Source: Alphaproteobacteria bacterium PA2 (GTDB lineage Bacteria; Pseudomonadota; Alphaproteobacteria; Caulobacterales; Caulobacteraceae). Taken from it: a stretch of 64,000 bases of DNA. The position numbers and the translations under genes are program-made. Under the pieces are notes generated by a model, which ran no database searches, had not been told where the DNA came from, and worked only from the letters and a program-made list of their open reading frames with translations. Each line of letters starts with the position of its first letter. Position 1 is the stretch's first letter. Below, one piece after another: positions 27,429 to 32,185 of this stretch. The DNA is taken from NCBI GenBank assembly GCA_002256425.1, contig NKIZ01000001.1:558001-622000 (forward strand), in the 5' to 3' direction.

Positions 27429-29168
27429 ATGCGTCCGGCCCTGCTCGCCCTGATCTGCCTGTTTGTCGCCGCTCCCGCCCTTGCAGACGACAGGGCCATC
27501 AGCCGGATCGTCGCGGAGTATGAGGCCTACAGTCTGAGGGATGATCCCTATTCCGCAGGCCAGCAGGGGGACCAGACCGCCCTCGGCCGGCTTCCCGATG
27601 TGACCCCTGCCGCAGATCGGGCCCGGGCTGTCGCCCTGGGCGCCTTCAGGGCGAAACTCGCCGCCGTTCCTGTTGCAGGCCTGTCAGATGAAGCGCGGCT
27701 GAACCGGGACTTCCTGACCTGGACACTGGATCGGCAGCTTTCCAGCCTGTCCTTTGACGAGGCCCGGATGCCGTTCAACTCCGACGGCGGCTTCCATCAG
27801 ACCCTGAACTATGTGGCCACCACCACGCCGATCCGGACCACGGCGCAGGCCAGGGCGTGGATTTCACGGCTCCGGGCCCTGCCGAAATTCTATGAAGACA
27901 ATATCGCCAATGCCCGGCGGGGCGTCGCCACGGGTTTCACCCAGCCGGAGTCCACCAATCAGCAGGTTCTGGAGCGCGCCCGGGCCCAGGCTGCGGCGAC
28001 TGTCGGGACCGATCCCCTGATGACGCCCCTCGCCCAACTTCCTGCCGGCGTTGCTGATCCCGAGGGCCTTCGTCGTGAGGCCGCAACAGTGATCACCGAT
28101 CAGGTCCGCCCCGCCCAGAGGGCCTTTGTCGCCTTCCTCGAAAAGGAATACCTGCCCGCCAGTCGCAGATCCCTGGGGATCCGTAGCGTTCCGGGCGGCG
28201 AGGCCTATTACAAGTGGCTGGTCGGGGACCACACCACGACCGACTTCACCCCCGACCAGATCCACCAGATCGGCCTGTCCGAGGTCGCCCGCATCCGCGC
28301 CGAGATGGACGGGGTCATTGCCGAAACCGGCTTCAAGGGGGATTTCCGCAGCTTCCAGGCCTATCTGCGCAGTGATCCGCGCTTCTATGCGACCTCCCGG
28401 GAAGAGCTGCTGGAGAAGGCCTCGCGGATCGCCAAGCGCATCGACAACGAGCTGCCAGCCTGGTTCGCGACCCTGCCGCGCCTGACCTATGGCGTGCGCC
28501 CGGTGCAGGCCGACATCGAGGAGACCTACACCACAGGCCGGTATTTCGGCGGCAGTCCCGAGCAGGGGGTGTCTGGCGGCTATATGGTCAATACGTCAAA
28601 GCTCGATCAGCGCCCGCTCTACGAACTTCCCGCCCTGACCCTTCACGAGGCGGTTCCGGGTCACCACCTGCAGATCGCCCTGGGTCAGGAGCTGCAGGGC
28701 GTTCCGAACTTCCGGCGCAATGCCGGTGTCACCGCCTTTACCGAAGGGTGGGGCCTCTACAGCGAGAAGCTGGGGGGCGAGATCGGCATCTACCGTGACG
28801 CCTATGAGCGCTTCGGGCGGCTCAGCTATGAAATGTGGCGGGCCTGCCGTCTGGTGGCGGACACAGGCATACACTGGAAGGGCTGGACCCTTGATCAGGC
28901 CAGGGCCTGCTTTGCCGACAACACGGCCCTCTCCCCCCTGAACATCGAGGTTGAACTGGCCCGCTATGTGTCCTGGCCCGGTCAGGCCCTGGCCTACAAG
29001 ATCGGCGAGATGAAGATTGTCGCCCTTCGGGAAAAGGCCAGGTCCGCCCTGGGCGACCGCTTCGACATCCGCCGTTTCCACGATGCCGTACTGCTGGCCG
29101 GCCCCCTGCCGCTCTCCCTGCTGGAACAGAGGGTGGACCGCTGGATCGCGGCCGAAAAGCGGCGCTAG
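27429..29168 (+). CDS. DUF885-family secreted protein, putative zinc metallopeptidase
   Basis: This 579-residue protein has a cleavable signal peptide (MRPALLALICLFVAAPALA) and is probably periplasmic. It belongs to the DUF885 family. The LHEAVPGHHLQ segment near residues 405-413 contains an HExxxHH-like zinc motif, and TEGWGLYSEKLGGEIG about 30 residues later supplies the expected downstream Glu. That suggests a peptidase, but no activity is known from the sequence itself. It is divergent from the APC permease, which could import released amino acids, and convergent with the TetR gene. Confidence 0.85.
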   Translation: MRPALLALICLFVAAPALADDRAISRIVAEYEAYSLRDDPYSAGQQGDQTALGRLPDVTPAADRARAVALGAFRAKLAAVPVAGLSDEARLNRDFLTWTLDRQLSSLSFDEARMPFNSDGGFHQTLNYVATTTPIRTTAQARAWISRLRALPKFYEDNIANARRGVATGFTQPESTNQQVLERARAQAAATVGTDPLMTPLAQLPAGVADPEGLRREAATVITDQVRPAQRAFVAFLEKEYLPASRRSLGIRSVPGGEAYYKWLVGDHTTTDFTPDQIHQIGLSEVARIRAEMDGVIAETGFKGDFRSFQAYLRSDPRFYATSREELLEKASRIAKRIDNELPAWFATLPRLTYGVRPVQADIEETYTTGRYFGGSPEQGVSGGYMVNTSKLDQRPLYELPALTLHEAVPGHHLQIALGQELQGVPNFRRNAGVTAFTEGWGLYSEKLGGEIGIYRDAYERFGRLSYEMWRACRLVADTGIHWKGWTLDQARACFADNTALSPLNIEVELARYVSWPGQALAYKIGEMKIVALREKARSALGDRFDIRRFHDAVLLAGPLPLSLLEQRVDRWIAAEKRR

Positions 29169-29812
29169 AGCCCTTCCGGCCAGAGATCCTGGACGCCGCC
29201 CTTGCGGTTCAGGGCGCGGACAGCCCGCTTGACGATCTGCAGCAGGCGGTCCCGCCGGGCGGTCTCGTCATAGGTCATGGCGCCCTTGGCCAGGCCCTCC
29301 AGCAGGAACCGACCGAGATCCCGGCTGGCCTGGAATCTGGGGTCGGCGCCGGCCTGGGCCAGGGCGTTGAACCTTTCGCCGACCTGGGCGTGATCAAAGG
29401 CCGCCTGGGCCTCTGCGAGTTGCGTCTTGAGCATGGGGTCGGTGCGGGCTGCGGCTTCCAGCTCGGAAAAGGCCACAAAAGGTGTTTCGTGCAGCAGGTT
29501 CCAATAGGCGTCGATAGCGTGCTCGGCGGCGTCCACATGGGGCGGATGGGCGGCGGCGGCTTCGAACAGCCGGGCCCGGGCGGCGTCGATATGGCCGATG
29601 ACCGCCTCCACCAGGGATTCACGGGTCGGGAAGTGATAGAGCATGGCGCCCCGGGTCAGGCCCGCTGCCTCGGCGATCATGGTGTTGTCTGTGCGGTGAT
29701 AGCCGACGGTGGCAAAAAGACTCATGGCCGCGTCCAGAATCCGGGCGCGGGTCCTCACCGCTTTCGGCGTCTCCCTGGCGTGCGGTCTGGCGTCGTCCAT
29801 GGGTTCCTGCAT
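29165..29812 (-). CDS. TetR/AcrR-family transcriptional regulator
   Basis: This 215-residue repressor-type protein has an N-terminal helix-turn-helix. The segment RTRARILDAAMSLFATVGYHRT is followed by MIAEAAGLTRGAMLYHFPTRESLVEAV. The C-terminal ligand-binding domain is helical and unassigned. The ATG at 29812 has AAAGGG upstream and is preferred to a GTG at 29827. It is divergent from the LpxH-like phosphatase gene (104 bases between), which it may regulate. Its stop overlaps the DUF885 gene end by four bases. Confidence 0.9.
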   Translation of the reverse strand: MQEPMDDARPHARETPKAVRTRARILDAAMSLFATVGYHRTDNTMIAEAAGLTRGAMLYHFPTRESLVEAVIGHIDAARARLFEAAAAHPPHVDAAEHAIDAYWNLLHETPFVAFSELEAAARTDPMLKTQLAEAQAAFDHAQVGERFNALAQAGADPRFQASRDLGRFLLEGLAKGAMTYDETARRDRLLQIVKRAVRALNRKGGVQDLWPEGL

Positions 29813-29916
29813 AGGCCCTTTGCCCACGGCGGGACAGATGATTGGCCGGTTTCACATCACTGACATGCAATCAGCCTAGCAGACGTGCGTTTCGGGTCAG
29901 CGGAGAGACCGGGAAG

Positions 29917-30741
29917 ATGGATCCTGAAGTGCGTCACTACCGTTCGATTTTCATTTCCGACATTCACCTTGGCACCAGGGGGTGTCAGGCCGAACTGTTG
30001 CTGGACTTCATCCGGCATGTGGAATGCGACACCCTCTATCTGGTGGGCGACATCATCGACGGCTGGAAGCTGAAGTCCGGCTGGTACTGGCCGCAGGCCC
30101 ACAATGATGTGGTCCAGAAGATCCTGCGCATGGCCCGCAAGGGGGTGAAGGTCATCTATGTCCCCGGCAATCATGACGAAGTCGTGCGGGACTTCATCGG
30201 CGTCCATTTCGGCGGCGTGGTCGTCGCGCGAGACGCCATTCACGAAATGGCCGATGGCCGCCGGTTCCTGGTGACCCATGGCGACGAGTTCGACGGCGTC
30301 GTCCAGCACGCCCGCTGGCTGGCCCTGGTGGGCGACTACGCCTATCGCGCCCTGCTGCTGACCAACACCCTGTTCAACCGGGTCAGGCGCCGTCTTGGCT
30401 TTGGCTACTGGTCCCTTTCGGCCTTCCTCAAGGCCAGGGTGAAGAACGCCCTGCAGTTCGTCGAGAACTACGAGTCCGCCGTAGCAGAGGAAGCCCGGCG
30501 GCGGGGCGTCGACGGCGTAATCTGCGGCCACATCCACAAGGCCGAAATGCGCGAGATCGACGGCATCACCTATATCAATGACGGCGATTGGGTGGAGAGT
30601 TGCACGGCGCTGGCGGAACACCCCGACGGGACCCTTGAACTTCTGGAATGGGCGAAGATGAGGTCCTGGTCCGTGATTGACCGCACCATTACCGACCTGG
30701 CCATTTCCGATGGCGTGACGCCTGAGGGCCTGGCCGCCTGA
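29917..30741 (+). CDS. LpxH-like calcineurin-type metallophosphatase
   Basis: This 274-residue protein has all the dimetal phosphoesterase motifs: SDIHLGTRG, VGDIIDGW, YVPGNHDE, VTHGDEFDG and ICGHIHKAEM. It is of the UDP-2,3-diacylglucosamine diphosphatase (LpxH) type, which would make it a lipid A pathway or envelope enzyme. Many alphaproteobacteria, including Caulobacter, use the unrelated LpxI for that step, so this protein may have another phosphate-ester substrate. The start is the ATG at 29917, with a purine-rich GGAGAGACCGGGAAG upstream. It lies 40 bases upstream of the TetR-glycosyltransferase fusion gene. Confidence 0.87.
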   Translation: MDPEVRHYRSIFISDIHLGTRGCQAELLLDFIRHVECDTLYLVGDIIDGWKLKSGWYWPQAHNDVVQKILRMARKGVKVIYVPGNHDEVVRDFIGVHFGGVVVARDAIHEMADGRRFLVTHGDEFDGVVQHARWLALVGDYAYRALLLTNTLFNRVRRRLGFGYWSLSAFLKARVKNALQFVENYESAVAEEARRRGVDGVICGHIHKAEMREIDGITYINDGDWVESCTALAEHPDGTLELLEWAKMRSWSVIDRTITDLAISDGVTPEGLAA

Positions 30742-30781
30742 GTCTTGACAGGGCAGATGAATTGGCGGCAGGCTTACTGTC

Positions 30782-32185
30782 ATGAAAGAGCCGACACCAA
30801 GATATGTCTCGGGACTGCGCGATCGACAGAAGGCCGAGACCCGCGATCAGATTCTCCGGGCCGTTGGCCGCAAGCTTGAAGACGGCGCGGTCGAGGACGT
30901 CACCTATTCGGAAATTGCCAGTGAGGCCGGTGTCGGCGAGCGGACGGTCTATCGGCACTTCCCGACGCGGGAAGCCCTCATGGGGGCTTTCTGGGCCTGG
31001 CTGCAGACCGAGGCCCTGGCCCCTCACAGGCCCACCAAGACCCGGGTTCGGGAAGCCGTCCGCACCCACATCGACGGCTTGCGCCCCATGCGGATCCTGC
31101 TGGCCACTGACGCCTGGGAGCCCCAGGTCAATGGCGTGGTCCGCACCCTGACCAAGGTGATCGCAGAAATGCGGGCCATGGGCCACACGGTAGAGGTGAT
31201 CAGCCCCGATCAGTTCAAGACCTTCCCCCTGCCTACCTATGCCGAGATCAAGGTGGCCGTCGGCGCCTATGAGCCGGTGCAGGAGCGGTTCAAGTCCTTC
31301 GAGCCTGAAGCCATTCACATCGCTACGGAAGGCCCGATCGGCCTGGCGGCCCGGCGGATCTGTGTGGAGTGGAAGCTGCCCTTCACCACCAGCTATCACA
31401 CGCGGTTTCCCGAATACGTCTCGGCCCGCCTGCCCCTGCCCCTGGCGGCGGGCTATGCCTATATGCGCTGGTTCCACAAGCCGTCCGGCCGTCTGATGGT
31501 CGCCACGCCGACCATGCGCGATGAGCTGGAGCAACACGGCTTCCACAACATCACAGCCTGGTCCCGGGGGGTGGATACGGTCCAGTTCCACCCAAGGCGC
31601 GAGGATGAGCCCGATGTCTATGCGGGCCTGCAGCGGCCGATCTTCCTGTCTGTGGGCCGGGTGGCGGTGGAAAAGAACATCGAGGCCTTCCTCAGTCTCG
31701 ACCTGCCCGGCACCAAGGTCGTCGTCGGCGACGGCCCGCAGAAGGAAGAGCTGGAAGAGAAGTATCCCGGCGCCGTCTTCACCGGCGCCAGGTTCGGCGA
31801 TGAGCTGGCGGCGCATTTCGCCTGCGCAGATGTCTTTGTCTTTCCGTCCCTGACCGACACCTTCGGCCTGGTGATCCTGGAAGCCATGGCTACGGGAGCG
31901 CCGGTGGCGGCCTATCCCGCGCCAGGGCCCATCGACATCATTCCCGGATCCAATGCCGGCGTGCTGGCGGCGACCGCCACCGAGGGCCTGCGCGAAGCCT
32001 GTCTGGAAGCCCTGAAGCTGGATCGCACCGTGGTGCGCCGGTTTGCTGAAGGCTTTTCCTGGCGCGCCTGCGCCGAGGATTTCGTCCGTAATCTCCAGCC
32101 CTATCCCGAGCCGCAGAAGACCCGGTTCTGGCGCAAGCTGCGACGGCTGGCCCGGGTGCGGCGCCGTCGGCCCGAGGCGGCCTAG
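30782..32185 (+). CDS. Fusion of a TetR DNA-binding domain and a GT4 glycosyltransferase
   Basis: This 467-residue frame has two unrelated parts. Residues 1 to about 100 look like the start of a TetR regulator: ETRDQILRAVGRKLEDG, TYSEIASEAGVGERTVYRHF and PTREALMGAFW. From M103 (31088) a complete GT4-type transferase begins with MRILLATDAWEPQVNGVVRT. It continues through TSYHTRFPEYV, FLSVGRVAVEKNIEAFL, VVVGDGPQKEELEEKYP and FPSLTDTFGLVILEAMATG, the last holding the nucleotide-sugar Glu motif. The joint is in frame and no good ribosome-binding site precedes M103. The TetR part lacks most of its ligand-binding domain. Substrate and acceptor are unknown; an envelope glycolipid is plausible given the LpxH-like neighbour. 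Confidence 0.82.
   Translation: MKEPTPRYVSGLRDRQKAETRDQILRAVGRKLEDGAVEDVTYSEIASEAGVGERTVYRHFPTREALMGAFWAWLQTEALAPHRPTKTRVREAVRTHIDGLRPMRILLATDAWEPQVNGVVRTLTKVIAEMRAMGHTVEVISPDQFKTFPLPTYAEIKVAVGAYEPVQERFKSFEPEAIHIATEGPIGLAARRICVEWKLPFTTSYHTRFPEYVSARLPLPLAAGYAYMRWFHKPSGRLMVATPTMRDELEQHGFHNITAWSRGVDTVQFHPRREDEPDVYAGLQRPIFLSVGRVAVEKNIEAFLSLDLPGTKVVVGDGPQKEELEEKYPGAVFTGARFGDELAAHFACADVFVFPSLTDTFGLVILEAMATGAPVAAYPAPGPIDIIPGSNAGVLAATATEGLREACLEALKLDRTVVRRFAEGFSWRACAEDFVRNLQPYPEPQKTRFWRKLRRLARVRRRRPEAA

Follow-up and report, generated by a model that had tools for sequence, protein, structure and literature searches.

Does the open reading frame at positions 30782–32185 of the DNA analysed here (the window, 64,000 nucleotides of the genome of Alphaproteobacteria bacterium PA2) encode a genuine fusion of a TetR-type DNA-binding domain to a glycosyltransferase, and what would an enzyme do with such a domain?

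A TetR-type DNA-binding domain joined in frame to a glycosyltransferase

The reading frame on the forward strand is free of stop codons throughout and its product is 467 amino acids long. Pfam TetR_N was detected at residues 35–69 (35.8 bits against a cut-off of 24), followed by Glyco_transf_4 at residues 116–266 and Glyco_trans_1_4 at residues 286–411, both above the curated cut-offs. The open frame and this order of domains bore out the first-pass annotation of this DNA, which had described a TetR DNA-binding domain fused in frame to a GT4 transferase and lacking most of the TetR ligand domain. The parts of the gene are as follows.

30782..32185, + strand: fused gene (TetR-type DNA-binding domain, linker and putative Agt-type GT4 glycosyltransferase), 467 aa; open frame, Pfam and 89 of 100 genomes of the genus
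30815..31012, + strand: TetR-type DNA-binding domain, residues 12–77; Pfam TetR_N, AlphaFold2 and PDB matches
30929..30961, + strand: recognition-helix region, residues 50–60 (GVGERTVYRHF); near-invariant in 57 fused proteins, dN/dS 0.08
31013..31087, + strand: linker, residues 78–102, of varying length among genomes; pLDDT, dN/dS and in-frame length differences
31088..32182, + strand: GT4 glycosyltransferase, residues 103–467; Pfam, fold match and motifs compared with PMC8231724
32108..32164, + strand: strongly basic C-terminal helix, residues 443–461; sequence and AlphaFold2, possible membrane role

AlphaFold2 predicted the helices of the DNA-binding domain (residues 12–33, 42–49, 53–59 and 63–77) and the enzyme part with confidence; pLDDT was below 50 at linker residues 78–98, which are predicted to be disordered. 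Fold searches with the whole protein returned, among the matches listed, the enzyme part only, and the DNA-binding domain was therefore folded and searched by itself. The Foldseek matches listed for the isolated domain were mostly titled TetR-family regulators, some of them DNA complexes, with E-values no lower than 0.015, which is unsurprising for so short a domain. The fused protein has the N-terminal helix-turn-helix of the TetR family. A C-terminal TetR ligand-binding and dimerisation domain was absent according to both Pfam and AlphaFold2, the linker and the GT4 enzyme being found instead, and because this domain is missing we do not class the fused protein as a TetR regulator.

Conservation of the fusion in Phenylobacterium and a sister genus

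Such a gene might be a young in-frame deletion chimera or an assembly artefact limited to this genome, an explanation favoured by the start of Caulobacter orthologues at the equivalent of Met103. We sampled 100 Phenylobacterium genomes and classed each match by length, frame and contig position. The same fusion in several genomes, proposed earlier as a check, was found in one open frame in 89 of the 100 (84 as a near-full-length single match and 5 as two pieces of one frame, split because their linkers are long) and in all three genomes of the sister genus g15. In the remaining Phenylobacterium genomes the helix-turn-helix lay at contig breaks (4), only the C-terminal part was matched (2) or there was no match (5); an unfused version of the enzyme was not seen among the 100. 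The presence of the fusion across a whole genus and its sister genus, in many independent assemblies, rules out a one-off event and leaves this explanation practically no probability. An assembly error at the joint, which the first-pass annotation had named as a possible refutation, is likewise excluded, since the host genome is a single complete contig (3.47 Mb) and the same joint recurs in many assemblies.

The protein was matched in 297 of 298 Caulobacterales genomes from 48 genera. Outside Phenylobacterium and g15 the alignments in this order, among the matches listed, mostly begin near residue 100, and the enzyme is likewise unfused in a class-wide sample. In most Caulobacter the start codon of the unfused orthologue overlaps the stop codon of the upstream phosphoesterase. 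The enzyme is, on these sequence comparisons, a core gene that is otherwise unfused in Caulobacterales. A tree of the enzyme part was compatible, at weak support (71/58), with the fusion having arisen once. The suggested comparison of the N-terminal 102 residues with orthologues had a divided outcome: relatives in Caulobacterales do start at the equivalent of Met103, but the fusion is not unique to this genome. The idea of a deletion between two adjacent genes is partly supported. It agrees with the starts of the orthologues and would hold only for an ancient event, the linker having diverged widely since; the separate tetR gene that it implies was absent between phosphoesterase and transferase in orthologous loci lacking the fusion.

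Selection was compared between regions by simple pairwise averages of dN/dS over related sequences, which serve this comparison and are not a formal site test. The values were 0.08 for the recognition helix (residues 50–60), the most constrained segment of the fused protein, 0.29 for the DNA-binding domain (13–75), 0.67 for the linker (76–102) and 0.165 for the enzyme. Residues E53, R54, V56, Y57, R58, P61 and T62 were invariant across 57 fused proteins, and the linker showed in-frame length differences between genomes.

The putative Agt-type enzyme and its upstream phosphoesterase

Directly upstream of the fused gene lies a second gene, preceded by a conserved block.

29917..30741, + strand: PlcP-like metallophosphoesterase; Pfam and locus comparison, pairing in PMC4796936 and PMC9239053
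29851..29879, + strand: promoter-region block TTCAC...GACATGCAATCAGCCTA before plcP, conserved in Phenylobacterium and Caulobacter

This neighbour had been called LpxH-like. That identity was rejected, as the protein fell far under the curated LpxH cut-off (54 of 190 bits), and a PlcP-type phosphoesterase fits better. A metallophosphoesterase related to that of the window, the reference being the window's own protein and no characterised PlcP, was found upstream in 95 of 120 loci, and plcP and agt genes commonly adjoin in lipid-remodelling bacteria (PMC4796936, PMC9239053). By resemblance the block before plcP is a possible PhoB site; the PhoB regulon of C. crescentus includes a phospholipase C, which we do not equate with this plcP-like gene (PMC11208175). 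A full-length TetR-family gene (29165–29827, − strand) is divergent from the adjoining plcP-like gene, and the operator of the fused gene is absent at its start.

The enzyme half carries H206, GRVAVEKN at residues 292–299 and FPSLTDTFG, including D359, at residues 354–362. It thus contains GRVAxEKN, FPSxTDTFG and the catalytic His together with an unusual catalytic Asp instead of Glu, all in common with Agt of A. tumefaciens and GTcp of Pelagibacter HTCC7211 (reference PMC8231724). The GT-B fold of GT4 enzymes is also present, the closest solved fold being MshA (3c4q, Z 30.6 over 332 residues, rmsd 3.0). Agt and GTcp likewise have their usual place behind a PlcP-like phosphoesterase; unlike them, the fused enzyme bears an N-terminal TetR-type domain and its own promoter and operator block. 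The best reading of the enzyme half is a putative Agt-type diacylglycerol glycosyltransferase, which would transfer sugar from UDP-sugar to diacylglycerol. The earlier guess of an envelope glycolipid role is supported and sharpened by this plcP–agt context. The basic C-terminal helix was conserved in fused and unfused enzymes and is possibly in contact with the membrane.

An operator-like palindrome on the start codon

Comparison of the regions upstream of the fused genes revealed two elements.

30745..30750, + strand: −35-like element TTGACA (−37 relative to the start codon); upstream alignment, predicted transcript start
30766..30782, no strand assigned: palindromic, operator-like CGGCAG-GCTTA-CTGTCA, whose last base is the A of the start codon; upstream comparison

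In each of the 60 distinct upstream regions of fused genes we found the palindrome TGRCAG-N5-CTGYCA, terminating at the A of the ATG and deviating slightly in some; these regions share ancestry and are not independent. The start codon was selected with a palindrome filter, which every fused locus passed. The window's own copy is imperfect, with four of six arm positions pairing, and was missed by a test for perfect palindromes. TTGAC was present in 58 of the 60 regions (at −37 in 49, at −36 or −38 in 9); window-wide, only 1 of 1051 ATGs had TTGAC at −37, that of the fused gene itself. With at most one mismatch the full pattern gave 31 matches in 30 of 40 genomes, against a single match for the control read backward. 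The palindrome is not present upstream of unfused orthologues, and the block is retained at those fused loci in which plcP was not detected upstream. At the level of sequence the components of autogenous repression are all present: an enzyme, a DNA-binding domain fused to it and, at the promoter of the gene, an operator-like site. A large regulon was ruled out, exact operators numbering 0–2 per genome among the matches listed. The palindrome with one mismatch occurred at 7 sites in genome G000, against 4 for the backward control, close to chance. Second operators in G034, G019 and G014 were set aside as chance-like, being located beyond recJ, or inside or distant from coding starts.

The start of the gene is marked by the conserved block TTGAC...TGRCAG-N5-CTGYCATG rather than by a Shine–Dalgarno sequence. 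The TTGACA at −37 leads us to infer that the transcript has little or no leader; in C. crescentus, leaderless mRNAs are frequent (375, PMC4117421). An E. coli-type promoter scan upstream of the fused gene found nothing, and no recognisable −10. The reported lack of a ribosome-binding site before Met103 holds, but Met1 is likewise without a clear Shine–Dalgarno sequence. Met103 (31088–31090) was the ancestral start, and 56 of 57 fused proteins retain it. Because it is still nearly invariant, a separate short form of the enzyme may be made alongside the fusion.

Palindromes at stand-alone TetR genes and upstream of an L,D-transpeptidase gene

The two full-pattern matches in G000 were the fused gene and a stand-alone TetR of 198 aa with the helix GVGERTVYRYF. 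The closest stand-alone TetR in the fused gene's own genome, whose helix is likewise GVGERTVYRYF, has TGGCAGT-N3-ACTGCCA at its start and TTGACA at −37. Perfect palindromes of different sequence end at the gene's own start at loci L161, L163 and L164, and three of seven stand-alone TetR relatives had no perfect palindrome at the start; by chance, a perfect palindrome ended at 69 of 1050 ATGs. At four stand-alone TetR loci (L161, L163, L164 and L002) the arms of the start-codon palindromes differ as the recognition helices differ.

In three genomes (G002, G012 and G013) the sole other exact operator among the matches listed lay upstream of a gene for an L,D-transpeptidase (Pfam YkuD). These loci, L170 (G002:C54), L169 (G012:C120) and L171 (G013:C107), belong to one Phenylobacterium sub-clade. 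Nine L,D-transpeptidase orthologues of at least 76% identity had 12–13 of the 13 operator positions upstream; in one of the nine the right arm was degenerate. The distance to the gene was about 120–150 bp in eight of the nine, the ninth locus being truncated. The operator was not found upstream of less similar L,D-transpeptidases (<76% identity), and a pattern scan near the L,D-transpeptidase loci found no TetR-type helix. Since the loci are related, this operator is a lead and not a proof.

Proposed autoregulation and its alternatives

Since a matching DNA site coincides with the start of its gene, the enzyme probably regulates its own synthesis. The first-pass annotation had offered a DNA-bound or autoregulated enzyme as one possibility, and we favour it, given a fusion conserved in two genera, a recognition helix under purifying selection and a palindrome over the start. 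The fused protein would then be, with fair probability, a DNA-binding, self-repressing glycolipid synthase loosely similar to PutA. GTcp is dimeric in solution and has its motifs in common with the fused enzyme (PMC8231724 for the motifs); the enzyme half, probably a homodimer of the same kind, would replace the missing TetR dimerisation and ligand domain. The dimer would present two DNA-binding domains to TGRCAG-N5-CTGYCA over its own promoter and start codon, and binding to this palindrome would repress the gene, so that the enzyme would limit its own synthesis. The likely inducer would be the engagement of membrane, diacylglycerol or UDP-sugar by the enzyme half, upon which the protein would leave the DNA during glycolipid synthesis. 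The sequence comparisons support the conserved fusion, selection on the recognition helix, the operator and −35 block and the enzyme motifs. Dimerisation, DNA binding and repression are what we infer for the fused protein; its release by membrane or substrate, the sensing step, is conjecture. Affinity for DNA may be low because the classical TetR dimerisation domain is missing. That the synthase senses its own membrane work, with the lipid state setting transcription of the enzyme and of the sub-clade L,D-transpeptidase and so coupling glycolipid supply to cell-wall cross-linking, is an extension we regard as speculative and rather unlikely.

Plain negative autoregulation, in which activity or membrane binding of the enzyme leaves DNA binding unaffected, is a serious contender that still falls short of being probable. 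The DNA evidence for it is the same as for a sensing synthase, and the long, variable and predicted disordered linker argues against tight allosteric coupling, but it leaves unexplained why the enzyme, and not a separate TetR, bears the domain. The absence of the TetR C-terminal domain and the imperfect operator copy in the window would agree with a vestigial or repurposed DNA-binding domain that serves stability, dimerisation or membrane contact and regulates nothing. This we consider improbable, since no segment is more constrained than the recognition helix, the operator is conserved at every fused locus and a paralogue has both helix and operator in common. A palindrome acting in RNA, as a short start-codon hairpin that controls translation of transcripts reading through from plcP, is more improbable still: the inverted repeat does reach into the start codon, but the sub-clade palindrome lies 120–150 bp upstream of the L,D-transpeptidase gene and not at its start, some stand-alone TetR relatives pair different palindromes with different recognition helices, and TTGAC at −37 suggests transcription from the ATG, which would leave out the left arm.

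The self-repressing synthase proposed here has partial precedents. Trifunctional PutA, an enzyme, uses its N-terminal DNA-binding domain to repress its own regulon (PMC5293562); like the fused protein, it joins such a domain to a metabolic enzyme, with autogenous repression, here proposed. PutA has a ribbon-helix-helix domain and a redox enzyme where the fused protein has a TetR domain and a glycosyltransferase, and its switch is established whereas that of the fused protein is conjectured only. TetR-family regulators resemble the fused gene in the DNA-binding fold and in a palindrome over their own promoter and start, and one paralogue has the same site, but they carry a C-terminal ligand and dimerisation domain where the fused protein has the enzyme. 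GmaR of Listeria is both a glycosyltransferase and an anti-repressor (PMC3150276), and so also controls transcription, as we propose for the fused protein, but it works by protein–protein contact with the repressor MogR and not through a DNA-binding domain of its own.

Our literature searches found no relevant report of a TetR–glycosyltransferase fusion, and a TetR-type DNA-binding domain on a membrane-lipid glycosyltransferase is an architecture for which no report was found in the literature searched. If the protein is self-repressing, lipid metabolism would have a PutA-like enzyme-regulator of its own, in which an enzyme has been substituted for the ligand domain of a regulator. With its operator defined in sequence, the system lends itself to a direct test of whether the synthase allows bacteria to read membrane glycolipid synthesis.
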